From Alphaproteobacteria bacterium (lineage in GTDB: Bacteria; Pseudomonadota; Alphaproteobacteria; Rhizobiales; JAJFHC01), in NCBI GenBank assembly GCA_021775805.1, contig JAJFHD010000011.1:62001-126000 (forward strand): a stretch of DNA of 64,000 nt, read 5' to 3'. The notes beneath the pieces were generated by a model. The model had not been told where the DNA came from and made no database searches. It was given only the letters and a program-made list of their open reading frames with translations. The stretch's first letter is position 1. Every line of letters begins with the position of its first letter. Made by a program: the position numbers and the translations under genes. Of the stretch, positions 36,622-55,486 are shown in pieces.

Positions 36622-36778
36622 CACCCCCCGGCGCCGCCGACCGATCCGATGCCGGCACTGCAATTGAGGGTGCGGACGCGGATCAGACCTTGACAGGACT
36701 TCTCCCGGCCCCTTATATCGGCGCCGGAACGCACATAATCTGGTCGTTCGACGCCCGCAGCGGGTGTCATTTGGTTGC

Positions 36779-36855
36779 GGCGGGGTAGCTCAGCTGGTTA
36801 GAGCAGCGGAATCATAATCCGCGTGTCGGGGGTTCAAGTCCCTCTCCCGCTACCA
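36779..36855 (+). tRNA. tRNA-Met (CAT)
   Basis: The 77-base cloverleaf has acceptor arm GGCGGGG pairing with TCCCGCT (two G-T pairs), D-arm GCTC-AGCTGGTTA-GAGC, anticodon loop ATCATAA with anticodon CAT, T-loop GGTTCAAGT and an encoded CCA end. Elongator tRNA-Met is the best fit; a CAT anticodon also occurs in tRNA-Ile2, which this does not resemble. The 3' end marks the edge of the lower-GC segment. Confidence 0.93.
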
Positions 36856-37410
36856 AATTTTCTCAATAAGAACAGACTGTTACAACTCGTTTGCCGTAGT
36901 TGATGTGTGTTGTTTCTTGTCATGGTACCACAATGGTACCATCAAGAGTCAGTTGCTACGGCGATATTGACGATATAGCAAACTCTGATCTGTGACCATC
37001 AGGACCACGACCCCACCCCGGGGCATCCCCCTTCGTCAACCAGGGTACCTCACTTGCAGTACATAATATTCCGCAGGGTTGATGTGAAAAATTCCTGAAA
37101 AACAATTTCTGAAAAAATTTCCAACTCACTCGCTTGTTCCCGCTACTATGTTTTCAGTGTGCTCGATGATGACTAGTGTCAACGGGGCATTCCAGTTTCG
37201 TGCGCCGCCGTTAGGTTGAAGAAACGTACTTCGCGAAATTTATCCTGACTATGATTTCTTCGCTCCTGACGGTTCCTTTTTCGCGAACTAAAAATCACTA
37301 CAAACGGGCAGAAAAATGCCGTCAGAGACAGCCTCCACCCCATTGGAATCACTGGCCGGATGTGGCCGGAATGCGCACAGGCCAAACTGTTAATGATTGG
37401 AGGAGAGAAT
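36856..37410. other. gene-poor tRNA-adjacent segment
   Basis: The 555 bases after the tRNA are AT-richer than the flanks and hold no convincing gene. A direct repeat of ATGGTACCA lies at 36922-36941 and a partial copy of the tRNA end (TCCCGCTAC) at about 37138. A 106-codon open frame on the minus strand (37179-37499) overlaps the next gene and has no family features. Confidence 0.5.
36922..36941. repeat. direct repeat ATGGTACCA
   Basis: Two copies of ATGGTACCA are separated by CA; each contains the palindrome GGTACC. It lies 67 bases beyond the tRNA. It may be a remnant of an integration module, but no integrase is present. Confidence 0.55.
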
Positions 37411-38892
37411 CTAGAGCTCCTCCTGATGCAAAACCATGACCGTGACCTCTTCGCCAAGATCTCGGGCAAGCTGTTCAAGGGTCGCCTTTTTGTCAGCATT
37501 GCTCGCGTGGGTCATGACGTACCAACCATCGATTTGGCGGCAACCACGACCTTCAGGTGGAGGGGTTCTTGATACGAGTGGATACCCAGATAACTTAATG
37601 CCGGTGCCGGCAATCCTGCCGAGCCCGAATTCGGAAACGGCCTCAGCCAGGACATCAGCTGCAACATTGCCAGAAAATTCTTTCCCATCGATGATGATAA
37701 CCAATCGAGTGGGCGGACCCTTCGTGTGACCGCCCTTCACTCCACGCATCGGCGGCTTTGTGTCAACACCCCCCATAGCCGCCTCTGCATCCTCTGCATC
37801 ATTTAACAGCGACTGTAAGGATGTTCGCAGATCACGAATTTCTTTCTCGAGCTTGGTGATATGAGTCAGGGCTTTACCAAGTTCCGACGTCAAGTCCAAT
37901 GTTGGACTGGGCTCACGCACCTTTCTCTGAGTGGGGCCTAATTGCACTGGTTTGGTCAGTGGGATCCCTGTGCCTGTAGGGTCTTGCTCGGACACGACGG
38001 GCTTGATGTCGCGAAGCACTTTCGCTCCTCCAAGCGCATTCTTATCAGCGTCATACCAATCAAACCAAGGGATTCCCGCTCTTGCATATTCGGCATTGGA
38101 AATAGGCCGGGTTGCTGGCGCATCCCTAGTGATCGCATGCCATTGCTGTGCGTTGAGAATAGTGACAAATACCCGAGCTGAAGCTGTTGTATCCCATGCA
38201 TCGATTCCGTACTCGTCCTTGTAGATTTCCTGACGCATTAGTCCACCCGCTGCCAGCCCCATTTCAGCGGCCATACAATTCATTCGCAGATCGGAAATGT
38301 CATAGAACGCGTCGGCTTCTGGCTGGAGAACGTGGGTTTCATAAACCTTCGATTTCATCGGATACACAGTGATTTGGACACCACCTTGGTCCGCACGTCC
38401 TGTAAGTTGTTCCTCGACGGTTTGACCATCACCCAGCGGCGCTGCGACGAACTGGCGAATCTCGCCCTTTGACACACAATATCCGTCCAGCCAGGGTTGG
38501 GACGGGAGCACGATGTAATCCTGTGGATTGGAGACCAGATGTTGATCCCACTCCGACCCTGTGATCGCATTGACCTTACCGGTAGCAATCTTGACTGCGA
38601 ACGGATATCCATCACCCAATCGTGATCTATTCCCAAACTGCATCCACATGGCTTCGGATTGCCACATCGGCATAATGACGCCTCCACGACGTCGAACGGG
38701 AAGCGGCAAATCTGTGCTGTAGTCGTCGAGATGTCGCAGGGGAAAGTTTCCCAACCCGGCTGGCAACGGATAGGTTCGGTCATCGTCTGGCAATCGAAGT
38801 GTACGTTGGAAGCCAATCCGGCAGCATGCATCTGGATGAACTTCTGGGAATGCAAAACTGAGAAAATCATTGTCGAGTTCGATCATCTTCAT
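37411..38892 (-). CDS. protein of unknown function, two-domain
   Basis: The 493-residue soluble protein has a conserved N-terminal domain (about 10-240: FPEVHPDACCRIGFQRTLRL, GGVIMPMWQSEAMWMQF, YPFAVKIATGKVNAITG, PWLDGYCVSKGEIRQFV, GLMRQEIYKDEYG). This resembles a family I have met in actinobacteria and cyanobacteria without known function. A coiled coil (about 335-362) follows, then a C-terminal domain (about 390-493: RLVIIIDGKEFSG, PLVSRTPPPEGRG, GWYVMTHASNADKKATLEQLARDLG). No catalytic motif was recognised. It lies 16 bases after the XRE gene. GC content is lower than in the flanks, pointing to transfer. Confidence 0.7.
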   Translation of the reverse strand: MKMIELDNDFLSFAFPEVHPDACCRIGFQRTLRLPDDDRTYPLPAGLGNFPLRHLDDYSTDLPLPVRRRGGVIMPMWQSEAMWMQFGNRSRLGDGYPFAVKIATGKVNAITGSEWDQHLVSNPQDYIVLPSQPWLDGYCVSKGEIRQFVAAPLGDGQTVEEQLTGRADQGGVQITVYPMKSKVYETHVLQPEADAFYDISDLRMNCMAAEMGLAAGGLMRQEIYKDEYGIDAWDTTASARVFVTILNAQQWHAITRDAPATRPISNAEYARAGIPWFDWYDADKNALGGAKVLRDIKPVVSEQDPTGTGIPLTKPVQLGPTQRKVREPSPTLDLTSELGKALTHITKLEKEIRDLRTSLQSLLNDAEDAEAAMGGVDTKPPMRGVKGGHTKGPPTRLVIIIDGKEFSGNVAADVLAEAVSEFGLGRIAGTGIKLSGYPLVSRTPPPEGRGCRQIDGWYVMTHASNADKKATLEQLARDLGEEVTVMVLHQEEL

Positions 38893-38908
38893 TCTCCATT
38901 TCTTGTGC

Positions 38909-39259
38909 TTACCAGTCGCCGTCCCGAACCTCTCGAACGAGTCTCAGGATTGCGTGATCAGGCGTTTCCTTGAGTTGCCTGATTAAATCAGCAAACAGCT
39001 TTGGTCTCTTTAGGATGACTTCCTGAAGGTCGCTGGAGACCTTTCCTGCCATCGCAAGCAGGACGTCGGGGTCTTCACCCAGTTCAACGGCAAGATGTCG
39101 TGTGACTTTCTCTGAAGGCGGGCCGAACTCCTCACGCTCAATCTTGCTCAGATAAGTGGGTTGAATACCCAGTCGACTGGCGAGTTTTCGAAGCGAGAAG
39201 CTTGTATCCTCTCGATAGAGGCTCTCGCGCAGCATCCGAATGTGTTGTCCAAAGTTCAT
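38909..39259 (-). CDS. XRE-family regulator
   Basis: The 116-residue protein has an N-terminal helix-turn-helix of XRE type (about 7-65: LRKLASRLGIQPTYLSKIEREEFGPPS) and a short helical C-terminus (FADLIRQLKETPDHAILRLVREVRDGDW). A dyad just upstream (39269-39286) is a likely autoregulatory operator. It is transcribed with the unknown 493-residue protein and probably controls it. Similar small XRE proteins regulate genes of mobile islands. Confidence 0.85.
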   Translation of the reverse strand: MNFGQHIRMLRESLYREDTSFSLRKLASRLGIQPTYLSKIEREEFGPPSEKVTRHLAVELGEDPDVLLAMAGKVSSDLQEVILKRPKLFADLIRQLKETPDHAILRLVREVRDGDW

Positions 39260-39268
39260 TCATGTAGT

Positions 39269-39286
39269 GTGTAATAGATACTACAC
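39269..39286. promoter_or_regulatory. candidate XRE operator
   Basis: GTGTAATAGATACTACAC is an imperfect palindrome with 14 of 18 positions symmetric. It starts 10 bases upstream of the XRE start codon. A second overlapping dyad (TGTAGT/ACTACA) extends it to 39263. Confidence 0.55.
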
Positions 39287-39439
39287 ATCTTGTCAATTGT
39301 CCGTCATCAAATGAATTGGGACATCTTGTAGGCTGAGCGAATGGAGTATCTGGCTCACCGGTTTTTCATTCTACGCGGCGGATTTGCGGTATTGCAAACG
39401 CCGTTTCTCGATTGTCTTTCGTTTGATCCTTTCTCTCTG

Positions 39440-40351
39440 CTATAGGATTGTTCGTCCCCGTCCGAAGTAGACGTCGGCGGGCGTAAGATTGCCCAGGCTC
39501 TCGTGGTATCGCTGATGATTGTAATGATCGACGAAGGCCTTGATCTGCGCCTCAAGGTCGCCCGGGAAGTAGTAGTTCTCCAGGAGAATACGGTTCTTCA
39601 AGGCCTGGTGCCATCGCTCGATCTTGCCCTGGATTTGCGGATGATAGGGCGCGCCGCGAACGTGTTCCATGCCATTGTCTTGGAGCCAATCGGCCAGATC
39701 GCCTGCGATGCAACCGGGGCCATTGTCAGACAACAATCTGGGCTTGTGGACAACAGCGGCCTGGTCACAACCGGAGGCTTGCACCGCCAATTCCAGGGTA
39801 TCGGTGACATCCCCAACCTTCATTGAGGTGCACAGCTTCCAGGCGATGATGTATCGGGAGAAGTCATCGAGGATCGTCGACAGATAATACTGGCCCCAGC
39901 TAATGACCTTCAGATATGTGAAGTCGGTTTGCCACAGCTGGTTCGGTCGCGTTGTCTTGTCCCTGAACTCCTCTGCGGCTTTGATGACCACGAAGGCGGG
40001 GCTGGTGATCAGATCATGGGCCTTGAGCAGCCGATAGACGGAAGCTTCTGAAACAAAATACTTTTGCGTATCGGTGAACCGTACCGCCAGTTCGCGCGGG
40101 CTAAGCTCCGGTTCCTCCAGCGCCAGCTCAACAATCCGCACCCGGATATCGTCGGGGATGCGGTTCCAGACGCGAGACGGCCTAGACCACCGGTCTTCCA
40201 GCGCCTCGGGACCGCCCGTGCGGTACTGGTCATACCAGCGATAGAAGGTGGTGCGGGCAATGCCCAGCATCACCAGGGTGCGTTTGACCGGCAGATGAGA
40301 CCGTTCAACCAGATTGATGATCTCCAGTTTTTCGAAGGCGGGATATCTCAT
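39440..40351 (-). CDS. IS3-family transposase OrfB, C-terminally truncated
   Basis: The frame encodes an integrase-core transposase with a helix-turn-helix (about 5-60) and the DDE triad: WQTDFTYL, LSDNGPG and the Glu in QGKIERWHQA. The last codons before the stop read GRGRTIL. Beyond the TAG at 39440-39442 the same frame continues for 22 codons as QRERIKRKTIEKRRLQYRKS and on, to a TAG at 39371. That tail is typical of the family, so the first TAG looks like a nonsense mutation. OrfB is normally made as a fusion to OrfA through frameshifting; 40351 is the first ATG. Activity is uncertain. Confidence 0.8.
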   Translation of the reverse strand: MRYPAFEKLEIINLVERSHLPVKRTLVMLGIARTTFYRWYDQYRTGGPEALEDRWSRPSRVWNRIPDDIRVRIVELALEEPELSPRELAVRFTDTQKYFVSEASVYRLLKAHDLITSPAFVVIKAAEEFRDKTTRPNQLWQTDFTYLKVISWGQYYLSTILDDFSRYIIAWKLCTSMKVGDVTDTLELAVQASGCDQAAVVHKPRLLSDNGPGCIAGDLADWLQDNGMEHVRGAPYHPQIQGKIERWHQALKNRILLENYYFPGDLEAQIKAFVDHYNHQRYHESLGNLTPADVYFGRGRTIL

Positions 40352-40373
40352 TCCTCGTCTCCCCCATCTGCGA

Positions 40374-40643
40374 TCATGCTTTTTTGAGTAGCCGCAACTC
40401 AAGCGCCTGCTCGGCCACAAACTCCTTCAGCTCATAGGCTTCACGGCGCAGATCCTTGACCTCATCGGTCGTGGCCGCGCGAGCCGTATCGCCGGCAAGC
40501 CGTTTCTTGCCCGCTTCCAGGAACTCCTTCGACCATTTATAATAGAGGCTCTGAGCGATGCCTTCACGCCGGCAAAGCTCTGCGATGGTCTCTTCGCCGC
40601 GCAAACCATCCAGAACAATGCGGATCTTGTTGTCAATCGGCAT
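40374..40643 (-). CDS. IS3-family OrfA (helix-turn-helix)
   Basis: The 89-residue protein has a helix-turn-helix (GEETIAELCRREGIAQSLYYKW) and a C-terminal leucine-zipper-like helix ending ELRLLKKA. It ends two bases past the frameshift heptamer. In this family it binds the terminal repeats and, when fused to OrfB by frameshifting, forms the active transposase. Confidence 0.88.
   Translation of the reverse strand: MPIDNKIRIVLDGLRGEETIAELCRREGIAQSLYYKWSKEFLEAGKKRLAGDTARAATTDEVKDLRREAYELKEFVAEQALELRLLKKA
40379..40385 (-). other. programmed -1 frameshift heptamer
   Basis: AAAAAAG lies near the end of orfA, four bases before its stop. Slipping back one base joins LLKK to the orfB frame (HDRRWGRRGMRYP). 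This is the standard IS3-family way to make OrfAB. Confidence 0.7.
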
Positions 40644-40692
40644 CCAATTTTGACCCCCTAACGGCGTGCAAAAATGACCCCTTTGGTACTGA

Positions 40693-40743
40693 GCTGGCCC
40701 GGTGCTGCGTAGTCTCCATTTAACGCAGCGGCAACGGGCCAGC
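40693..40743. repeat. large imperfect hairpin between the IS and iclR
   Basis: GCTGGCCCG at 40693 pairs with CGGGCCAGC ending at 40743 (9 bp). An inner GCTGCG/CGCAGC stem (6 bp) follows, separated by an uneven internal loop. No T-run follows on either strand, so it is not a standard terminator. It lies 21 bases beyond the iclR stop and could be an element end or a small mobile repeat. Confidence 0.6.
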
Positions 40744-40763
40744 GTGGCTGCTCCGGGACAGAC

Positions 40764-41513
40764 TCAGTCGTTCCTGCCAATTTCAGCGCTGGCAGCCAGC
40801 AGGCTTTCGAGCAGACGTTGGGAATCGGGTCGTGCGCCTTTGAAAACCGTCAGGCCGATGGTTGCAATTACCCGCTCGTTTTTGACGATCGGCGCCGCCA
40901 GTGTGGTTGTCTCGGGATCCAGGTCACTTGCCCGGATGGCGACGCCGCGCGACCGTACTTTCCTCAATGTCGGTGCCATTTTCCTGGCAATCTGGCCTGC
41001 GGTTATCCTGGGTGTCAGCGTTTCGCTTAGTGTCTGGTAGAGGTGCGTGCGTTCCAGGTCGTGACAATAGGCAAGGTAGGCCCGCCCGTGCGCCCGGTTC
41101 AACAGATCCAGCCTCTTGTTCACGGTCGATTGGCTGTGTGACAAAGGGCTGCGGGGAATGGTGCTGTAACGCACCACCATTGCGTCCCGATCCAAGGTCG
41201 CTAGGGCTGCCGGCCACAGCAGCTTCCGTGTCAACTCCTCAAGGGCCAGGCACGCCTTGTCGAACACTGCCGGCAGCCCGTGGTAGCCAGCACTCAGGGC
41301 GGTTACCCTTTCGGTAATGCAATAGCCGGTTCTGCGGTCGATTTGCCGGACGAAACCGAGGGCCTCGAGAGTTTCGAGAATGCGCACGACAGTTGGTGCC
41401 GGCACATTCAAGGCATCGGCCAGTTCGTTGACCTTGGAGACCTGCCGCAGGTTCATCGCCTCGATCACACGGAGCGTCTTCTCCACTGATTTGATGGTTT
41501 CAAATGATGCCAT
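40764..41513 (-). CDS. IclR-family regulator
   Basis: The 249-residue protein has an N-terminal winged helix (about 8-65; KVNELADALNVPAPTVVRILETLEALGFV) and a C-terminal effector-binding GAF-like domain (about 75-245; LNRAHGRAYLAYC, GVAIRASDLDPETTTLAAPI). It is encoded 42 bases downstream of the class V aminotransferase gene on the same strand and probably responds to a metabolite of that pathway. Its stop lies close to the hairpin at 40693-40743. Confidence 0.88.
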   Translation of the reverse strand: MASFETIKSVEKTLRVIEAMNLRQVSKVNELADALNVPAPTVVRILETLEALGFVRQIDRRTGYCITERVTALSAGYHGLPAVFDKACLALEELTRKLLWPAALATLDRDAMVVRYSTIPRSPLSHSQSTVNKRLDLLNRAHGRAYLAYCHDLERTHLYQTLSETLTPRITAGQIARKMAPTLRKVRSRGVAIRASDLDPETTTLAAPIVKNERVIATIGLTVFKGARPDSQRLLESLLAASAEIGRND

Positions 41514-41555
41514 GCTTTAGGCTGTCCCGATTGGCGAATTGTGTCGATCAAGGCG

Positions 41556-42743
41556 TCACCGCCTCAACGCTTCTGCGATTTTTTTGGCTGCAGCGGCGGC
41601 CCCCGATGCGCCCATCGGTGCGTTCATGGCGGTGAGCGCTGCTTCTACGGTTGCCAGAGTGCCCAGTACCATCGGTGGACTCAGGTGTCCCATGTGCCCG
41701 ATGCGGAAGGCCCGGCCCGCGAAGTCGCCGAGACCCACGCCCAGGACCAGTCCGGCACTGTCTTCGCAAATCTCGCATAATCTTGTGGCGTCGACGGAAC
41801 CGGCGAGGACTGTTGTGGTTGAATTCGACCGGTGTGCCGGGTTGACAATGTTGCACTCCAGGCCATCGGGTGCCGACCAGGCGTTGACCGCCGCGCGCAC
41901 GGCACCGGCAAAGACCGCGTGTCTTTCCCAGATCGCTTCAAGGCCTTCTTCGGCGATCATGTCCAGGGCCGTCCGCATTGCATAGATGTGCTGCACCGGC
42001 GCTGTGCCGCAAAATCTCAAATAGTGAGCTTCGTCGGAGAGGCGCGCCGTCCAGTCCCAGTAGGGTGTGCGCATATCGGCATTTTTATGAGCGGCCAATG
42101 CCTTTTCACTTGCCCACACAAGGCCCAGGCCCGGGGGTACCATCAGGCCCTTCTGGCTGCCGCCGACGGTGACATCGACGCCCCAATCGTCCATGAGATA
42201 TTCGACACAGCCCAGCGACGCGATGCAGTCGACCATATAGAGCGCCGGGTGACCGGCTGCAGCGATCGACCGTCTAATCTCTGCGATGTCGTTCCAGACG
42301 CCGGAGGCGGTGTCGACCTGAACCACCAGGATCGCCTTGATTTCATGACCGGTGTCGGCACGCAGGCGCTGCTCGACGGCGTCGGGGTCGACCGGTCCGC
42401 GATCCGGCGCGTGGAGCACTTCCACCCGAGCGCCCAGCAGTTCCGCCTGGTCTCCCCAGCCCAGGGCAAAACGGCCGGACTCAAGCACCAGCACCTTGTC
42501 GCCTCGGCTCAGGGTATTTGTCAGGGCCATTTCCCAGGCACCATGACCGTTGGACACCGTCATGAAAGGCTGAACCCTGGTCCGCGCAATGGCAGACAGG
42601 TCCCTGAAGACGCTCAAGCTGGTCTCGACCAGTTCACCTGAATAGATGTTCGGCATCGCGGTGTGCATGGCGCCCAGTACGCGGTCCGGGATAACGGACG
42701 GTCCTGGCATGGACGTCAGCATGCGGCCTCGATTGAGTTTCAT
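41556..42743 (-). CDS. class V aminotransferase (serine/alanine-glyoxylate type)
   Basis: The 395-residue PLP enzyme resembles serine-glyoxylate and alanine-glyoxylate aminotransferases: MLTSMPGPSVIPDRVLGAM, VSNGHGAWEMALTN, VDCIASLG and the PLP-Lys in GGSQKGLMVPPGLG. The start at 42743 follows GGAGACTCCCC. It is followed by an IclR regulator. Likely reactions are transamination of glyoxylate with serine or alanine, or of a related amino acid; the substrate is not resolved by sequence. Confidence 0.85.
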   Translation of the reverse strand: MKLNRGRMLTSMPGPSVIPDRVLGAMHTAMPNIYSGELVETSLSVFRDLSAIARTRVQPFMTVSNGHGAWEMALTNTLSRGDKVLVLESGRFALGWGDQAELLGARVEVLHAPDRGPVDPDAVEQRLRADTGHEIKAILVVQVDTASGVWNDIAEIRRSIAAAGHPALYMVDCIASLGCVEYLMDDWGVDVTVGGSQKGLMVPPGLGLVWASEKALAAHKNADMRTPYWDWTARLSDEAHYLRFCGTAPVQHIYAMRTALDMIAEEGLEAIWERHAVFAGAVRAAVNAWSAPDGLECNIVNPAHRSNSTTTVLAGSVDATRLCEICEDSAGLVLGVGLGDFAGRAFRIGHMGHLSPPMVLGTLATVEAALTAMNAPMGASGAAAAAKKIAEALRR

Positions 42744-53953: not shown

Positions 53954-55486
53954 CTACTTCGTTACATTGAACTGCCGCACCGGCGATTGCGAGCCGTCCC
54001 GATAGGTCAACTGGACCTGCAGGGCAGCGGCCTTGTTCGGCGTCTTCATATGGATCTTGGTGTTCTGCGGCACGCCATAGGGTTTGGCAGGATCGCAGGG
54101 CGGCAGAGGCCAGACTTTGTCCAGGGGACCGCCGTTCAATCCGTAGCGAATTTCCTTGATACCGCAGCGATAGCTAATCAGGTGGGAGAAATAGGTCCGC
54201 CCTCCACCAAACGCGATCCAGGCCGTCCAGACCTGATCAAGGATTTTCTTTTGATGATCGGCAAGATCCCCGATTGGATTGAAACTTACGGGGAAAATAT
54301 CTGCTTGCTCACCGCGCTTGTCGCGCCATGTAACGTAGAGCGTCACCGGTCCCTGGTCGCCCGGCAACATAAAATTCGTCTTCGGCTGGCGCTGACCCGT
54401 GCGCTGGTCGAGATGGTCGTGGAGACCGGGGTCCTGGAATTCTCCGTCTTCGCCGATCCGGTAGCCGAACTGGGTCGCGGGTTCGGGCAGGGAAACATTC
54501 ACCAGCCAGTCGGTGTTGGTACGGTTGAAACTGACCAGCGGCTTGGCCGAACCGAGTGGCAGGGCGGCCAGTTTCTGAGCCGGTTTCGGCAGAACACTGG
54601 CGCCGCCGCCTTCCTCCAGCGAGGTGACCGTGCCCTTGGCTCTTTTGTCCTCCGGTGTCAGATAAAGGTCGCCGATGATCTGGTCGTAGTAGGCGGGTGT
54701 CTGTTCATGCCCGACCTTGCCGGCGAGCTTTCTCACCTGCACTTGGGTCCGCTTGGCAATCTGCACCATGGAAAGCTCCGGCTTGGCCAGTTCGACCAGC
54801 AGGGTCCGGGTAAAGACGGAATTTTCATTGGCGTCGTTGTCGCCCAGCCGATCGAGTGCTGCCTGTCCGGATCCTGCCGAGTAAAGCACGAACATGCCTT
54901 CGGCCGGCGACATGCGGGCCAGTCCACGGGTGCCCGAAAGGCTGCGCTTGCCCTTTGCGGCAAACGGGTTGTCCCGGCAGGCGTCAAGGATCATGACGGC
55001 TGTGGCAGCACCCTTGTCACGCATCCGGTCGGCAAGACCGTTGGCGGCAAACGAGGCGTCGCGCACGAGCCCTTCTTCTCCGGGACCCGCTTCAGGCACG
55101 TCGACCGGCAGCAGGTAGTTGGTGCCTTCTATGGCAAATCCATGGCCGGCAAAAAACAGCAGGGCCGTGTCGCCGGGGCCAATCTTGCGTTCGAACTCGA
55201 CCAGCGCCCGGCTCATGGCCCGGCGGCCGACATCGCTGGCGGAAATAACATCGAAGCCCAGCGATGTCAGGGCATTTGCCATCGCCCGGGCATCGTTACG
55301 TGCCTTCTGCAGTTCCGGCACGCTCTCGTAGGTATCGTTGCCGATGACCAACGCCACGCGCTTGGCAGCATCGGCGGGCAAAGGCAAAGTGAGCAGGAGT
55401 ACGGCAACAGCAAACGCGAAGAACGAAAGCCGTAAGGGTCCCGCGGGGTCGTTGTTCCGATTTGGGGCTGGGCTGACAAAATTCAT
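53954..55486 (-). CDS. exported caspase-like (peptidase C14) protein
   Basis: The 510-residue protein has a signal peptide (hydrophobic core about 20-37, cleavage near ADA-AKR). A caspase/metacaspase fold (about 42-270) follows with the His-Cys dyad: His115 in FFAGHGFAIEG and Cys170 in ILDACRDNPFA. The sequence opens with RVALVIGNDTYESVPEL. A C-terminal beta-rich region (about 300-510) of unknown type follows. Exported bacterial members of this kind are common in alphaproteobacteria; their substrates are unknown. The ATG overlaps the stop of the upstream CxxC protein gene (ATGA). Confidence 0.85.
   Translation of the reverse strand: MNFVSPAPNRNNDPAGPLRLSFFAFAVAVLLLTLPLPADAAKRVALVIGNDTYESVPELQKARNDARAMANALTSLGFDVISASDVGRRAMSRALVEFERKIGPGDTALLFFAGHGFAIEGTNYLLPVDVPEAGPGEEGLVRDASFAANGLADRMRDKGAATAVMILDACRDNPFAAKGKRSLSGTRGLARMSPAEGMFVLYSAGSGQAALDRLGDNDANENSVFTRTLLVELAKPELSMVQIAKRTQVQVRKLAGKVGHEQTPAYYDQIIGDLYLTPEDKRAKGTVTSLEEGGGASVLPKPAQKLAALPLGSAKPLVSFNRTNTDWLVNVSLPEPATQFGYRIGEDGEFQDPGLHDHLDQRTGQRQPKTNFMLPGDQGPVTLYVTWRDKRGEQADIFPVSFNPIGDLADHQKKILDQVWTAWIAFGGGRTYFSHLISYRCGIKEIRYGLNGGPLDKVWPLPPCDPAKPYGVPQNTKIHMKTPNKAAALQVQLTYRDGSQSPVRQFNVTK

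Follow-up and report, generated by a model that had tools for sequence, protein, structure and literature searches.

Two kinds of described two-gene systems resemble the locus analyzed here. In HipBA, an XRE regulator gene lies upstream of the larger gene for the HipA kinase, and a palindromic operator is found at the promoter. The universally conserved terminal Trp of HipB lies on an unstructured tail, which serves as a Lon degron and occupies a HipA pocket (PMC3376134). In ImmR-ImmA, DdrO-IrrE, and CapH-CapP, the XRE regulator is paired with an M78 metallopeptidase. The present locus, found in a window of 64,000 nucleotides (the whole stretch of DNA that was analyzed), has the gene order, the promoter operator, and the Trp-ending unstructured regulator tail of HipBA, and at the sequence level its XRE has the features of an autorepressor with a conserved upstream operator, but its partner is not a HipA kinase and the tail is common to regulator and partner. 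With the M78-type systems it shares a related XRE body and the two-gene arrangement, whereas its partner is no peptidase, its XRE adds a DGxW tail, and no further regulated operon was found. The reading that we favor, and hold with about even confidence, is that of a horizontally spreading, self-contained module made of an XRE autorepressor and a payload partner, with contacts through the tail as a weaker part and a role in conflict as the least certain one.

Layout, pairing, and operator of the cassette

The features of the locus are given below, with the basis of each assignment in brackets where it applies.

36779-36855, + strand: tRNA-Met(CAT)
37411..38892, - strand: partner protein, the putative payload gene, 493 aa (open reading frame, homologues)
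37414..37713, - strand: accessory C-terminal domain of the partner, residues 394-493, replacing the VRDGxW-like tail (homologues)
37777..37893, - strand: long helix of the partner, a probable coiled coil, residues 334-372, linking to the accessory domain (AlphaFold2)
37933..38892, - strand: conserved N-terminal domain of the partner, beta-rich, residues 1 to about 320 (alignment, models)
38909..39259, - strand: XRE-type repressor, 116 aa, C-terminal end ...LVREVRDGDW (open reading frame, HTH_19 match with E 8.8e-10)
39269..39286, - strand: operator palindrome GTGTAGTATCTATTACAC, family consensus GTGTASTATATASTACAC (conservation, sole close match in its own genome)
39291..39296, - strand: -35-like TTGACA of the cassette promoter (read from the sequence, same order of TTGACA and palindrome in many homologues)
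39440-40420 and 40374-40643: IS3-type element, transposase pair (rve and HTH_Tnp_1)

The initial annotation had described a two-gene cassette with an XRE regulator, lying in a lower-GC segment beside an IS, and this description was borne out: both open reading frames were recovered at the positions and with the peptides that it gave (the XRE gene first, 16 bp from its partner), the regulator matches HTH_19, the G+C content is 50-53% across about 36.6-39.8 kb vs. 57-67% in both flanks, and the neighboring element carries an IS3-type transposase pair. The proposed link to a tRNA held for the adjacency to tRNA-Met but not for an integration at the tRNA, with no direct repeats of at least 16 bp within 36700-41600 and no integrase among the open reading frames between the tRNA and the IS. 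No mobilization gene or repeat was found to mark the window copy, and the IS3-type element merely adjoins the cassette.

In 76 of the 80 genomic loci, and for 93 of the 131 family open reading frames overall, the gene immediately upstream of the partner encodes, in the same orientation, an XRE of a single family. The distance matrices of XRE and partner are correlated (r = 0.74; none of 2000 permutations as high), so the two genes travel together. The window XRE shares 33-71% identity with 43 orthologues, which come from phages and from bacteria of many phyla, and DGxW is invariant. No third common neighbor was found: beyond the pair, even the commonest neighbor families are present at no more than 14 loci, with varying offsets, and the Pfam families of the 88 nearest neighbors are mostly unrelated (about 55 dereplicated loci). 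By these comparisons, the XRE gene and its partner are a conserved two-gene module beyond this locus. A downstream HTH protein in Miltoncostaea (L013) was considered as the cassette XRE and rejected, being a different XRE.

The operator claimed for the cassette proved to be kept across homologues far beyond chance: the 18-bp palindrome GTGTASTATATASTACAC occurs upstream of the XRE start in 71 of 94 regions at no more than 4 mismatches, vs. 0.05% of mononucleotide shuffles, and is often preceded by TTGACA in homologues; in several large-phage copies the site has diverged. Across the 6.6-Mb genome (an assembly rated 7.86% contaminated), nothing apart from the window palindrome matches closely; the remaining matches have 3 mismatches and are fewer than those of a reversed control pattern. 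Since the operator has one close copy in the genome, the XRE probably controls this cassette alone, repressing just itself and its partner. A single-stranded hairpin at the operator was rejected because its stability does not exceed that of shuffles (z = 0.09), which argues for a DNA site and not a structure.

The partner family, its spread, and its predicted fold

Using the family alignment (A1) as the query against the collection of species genomes, 537 places were found to encode a relative of the N-terminal family, while a single protein as the query gave no match in the same collection. Eighty genomic loci (L018-L097) were kept from these places, with 12 phylum labels in the tree. In addition, 32 viral contigs of IMG/VR carry a family member, 18 of them longer than 100 kb. 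The usual member has 330-390 aa, and in tblastn searches of the plasmid and phage collections as well as in six-frame searches of the class the homologues covered only residues 1 to about 335. The partner had been described as a protein of two domains; both parts are present, but they are not equals, as residues 1 to about 330 form the conserved family and the C-terminal part is an accessory fusion that recurs in a single further homologue. The alignment of 84 sequences has 22 invariant columns (including T31, R33, E80, Q132, D136, Q147, Q162, Q221, and D226). Neither a His/Cys metal site nor a Ser/Cys hydrolase motif is evident among the conserved columns, and the partner shows no recognizable catalytic motif.

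The partner has no HExxH or other protease motif and no match to a Pfam, NCBIfam, PADLOC (2.0.0), or PHROG family, in agreement with the earlier statement that no known defense domain is visible. For the partner together with 83 homologues, Pfam gave nothing above noise and no match to a HipA kinase-like toxin, and no member of the family matches Peptidase_M78. No sequence relatives of the partner were found in the PDB, and homology to a housekeeping enzyme was looked for and not found. No literature on the family was retrieved by a search that left most subscription papers outside its reach. On sequence grounds, the partner is a member of a large undescribed family, present in bacteria of many phyla and in very large phages. 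Two members, L015:4887-6055 (phage Rctr197k) and L007:194-1278 (genome G007), are broken across two frames, either through decay or through sequencing error. In the Bradyrhizobium plasmid pBb1S5b (L011:9971-18470), a family member is found next to M12 peptidases, a caspase-family protein, and a trypsin-like protein. At 53954-55486, the window itself encodes a protein that, by its sequence, is caspase-like (metacaspase-type) and probably carries a signal peptide.

Within the class, 7 of 289 genomes contain the family, the window genome counted, and none of the 30 nearest relatives of that genome does, so the accessory character proposed for the cassette is upheld and a conserved core synteny did not emerge. 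Plasmids and large phages carry members as well. Phyla are interspersed in the tree (20 label changes vs. a minimum of 11, to which mis-assigned bins contribute), and many loci come from metagenome bins. Thauera (L065) and an Anaerolineales bin (L070) carry nearly identical cassettes. A recent cross-phylum transfer was considered for them, but a mis-assigned bin is the likelier explanation because flanking DNA is shared and a stretch is missing. About 50% identity across phyla, a conserved operator of its own, and horizontal movement together mean that the module must be under strong selection.

Structure prediction gave a confident N-terminal domain in the window protein (pLDDT mostly > 90) and a C-terminal domain of low to medium confidence; a tailed homologue from Tolumonas was modeled with a mean pLDDT of 90.3 and a pTM of 0.88. 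With Foldseek, neither model matched anything in the PDB at E ≤ 0.001 (best 0.32 for the window and 0.25 for Tolumonas), and the predicted fold is likely new. In the viral structure library, proteins of giant eukaryotic viruses were matched (Harvfovirus A0A3G5A0P2, Hyperionvirus A0A3G5A6D8, and others; best for Harvfovirus, E 1.6e-22, 23% identity), which suggests that the partner domain serves both hosts and viruses. These proteins resemble the partner in structure, but no XRE partner is known for them, and they are uncharacterized too.

The C-terminal tail and the window variant

Each of the 93 paired XREs has [DE][GS]xW at its C terminus, in most cases as VRDGDW. The ends of 42 of 127 partners match [VI]x[DENT]Gx[WF], compared with 2 among 1526 other genes from these loci; these 42 are related and hence not independent, although they are spread over distant branches, with members in Euzebya, Streptomyces, Nitrospira, gammaproteobacteria, and large phages. 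Two thirds of the partners lack the exact terminal tail, and many keep VRE[MYFPS] plus extra residues. Tail and XRE are both absent from a more distant phage branch (L120-L129). When 20 records with a partner only were searched whole for an orthologous XRE, a weak partial match was all that appeared (E 9e-8, Kovacikia plasmid), and many of these partners, several of them in phage or plasmid records, retain the tail, so the tail is not for the XRE alone. In a close partner subgroup (L099-L101 and L004), the tail ends in a W plus two more residues (e.g., SSSWEE, SGSWDY), and a large serine recombinase near L101 (5122-6483) suggests a mobile element.

The XREs outside the cassette that are closest to it (profile E about 1e-28) are paired with Peptidase_M78 (IrrE/ImmA-type) genes in G197 and G044, where the paired proteins do match Peptidase_M78. 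These XREs lack the tail, which therefore belongs to this system. In the Tolumonas model, the pLDDT of the tail is about 59 vs. > 90 in the body, and thus the tail seems free for contact in trans; intramolecular docking is unsupported by the model confidence of this tailed homologue. We infer, with less assurance than for the pairing of the genes, that the VRDGxW-like tail may be a docking peptide.

The window copy is a variant that has a probable coiled coil and an accessory domain where the family has its tail, the long helix of residues 334-372 being followed by the small domain of residues 394-493 (low to medium model confidence). The same C-terminal fusion is found in Hyphomonas (L022, E 8e-21), and the window clusters with L018 and Hyphomonas in the tree (SH-aLRT 94); the L018 partner has a short VRE-type tail and no accessory domain. 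A search of viral contigs with the C-terminal domain gave no match, and this domain stands alone on a Methylomonas plasmid (L130, E 9e-9) and in genome G604. Both L130:7788-8348 and L149:3363-3935 are small stand-alone proteins of this kind, with a helix and a TH[SAF]-motif domain, mobile and without a family name. Another C-terminal extension follows the VRE-type tail of the partner at L083:3160-4857 (566 aa open frame), which indicates that fusions in the tail region arose more than once.

A candidate mechanism and its alternatives

In the proposed mechanism, an XRE dimer would bind the palindrome and repress the two-gene transcript, and this autorepression would cap the level of the XRE as well as that of its partner. 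Because no third gene is common and the operator is unique in the genome, the partner most likely represents the payload rather than a mere anti-repressor of something else. With less certainty, the VRDGxW tails of XRE and partner may be read by one pocket, most likely on the partner body, in which case the XRE tail could hold the partner, the partner's own tail could give partner-partner contacts or self-inhibition, and in the window copy the coiled coil and accessory domain would stand in for the partner tail. A conflict role (toxin, defense, or competition between mobile elements), the least certain step, would be switched on when repression is lost. We offer only tentatively the wider idea of a new-fold family of bacteria, very large phages, and giant eukaryotic viruses with a VRDGxW pocket, in which the repressor would vie with the payload for a single site. 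Such a tail-exchange switch is not known from any other XRE module. As tail and operator are conserved, small peptides and an 18-bp DNA would allow a direct test of the mechanism.

A type II toxin-antitoxin-like module following the logic of HipBA, with the XRE as antitoxin and autorepressor, the partner as a growth-arresting toxin, and the W-ending XRE tail as a degron through which a protease renders the antitoxin labile, is an unlikely alternative, although it would account for the XRE gene preceding a larger partner, the operator kept at the promoter, and the invariant C-terminal Trp, and HipB provides the closest precedent for the XRE tail (PMC3376134). The partner, however, matches neither HipA nor any toxin model, a degron would not easily account for the presence of this tail on the partner too, and phages and plasmids carry the partner without the XRE.

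The payload reading would also accommodate a defense role, which is possible; that the cassette is specifically an anti-phage defense gene or one for competition between elements, under tight self-control, seems to us unlikely. The patchy and horizontal spread in bacteria and very large phages fits such a gene, and the XRE resembles regulators of defense operons (capH model, E 8.4e-6), but the partner has no PADLOC match. A survey of neighbors for defense genes, as the initial annotation had suggested, gave a weak association over about 55 dereplicated loci: single loci lie near defense-like genes (DrmC, IetA, PDC-S11), but the neighbors are mostly ordinary genes, and the sampled hits, a raw tally, are single and to some extent generic (in L077, the mad2 match spans 119 residues).

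It is improbable that the partner inactivates the XRE as a sensor or anti-repressor, the real targets being elsewhere in the genome: the M78 pairing of the closest outside XREs would place the partner in the slot of an anti-repressor protease such as ImmA, but it bears no protease motif, the operator has no second close genome copy, and no neighboring target is common. At L143:4012-5210 and L144:3522-4694, tailless related XREs with Peptidase_M78 genes lie near a Toprim-like gene that, by eye, is of the mobile-element type.
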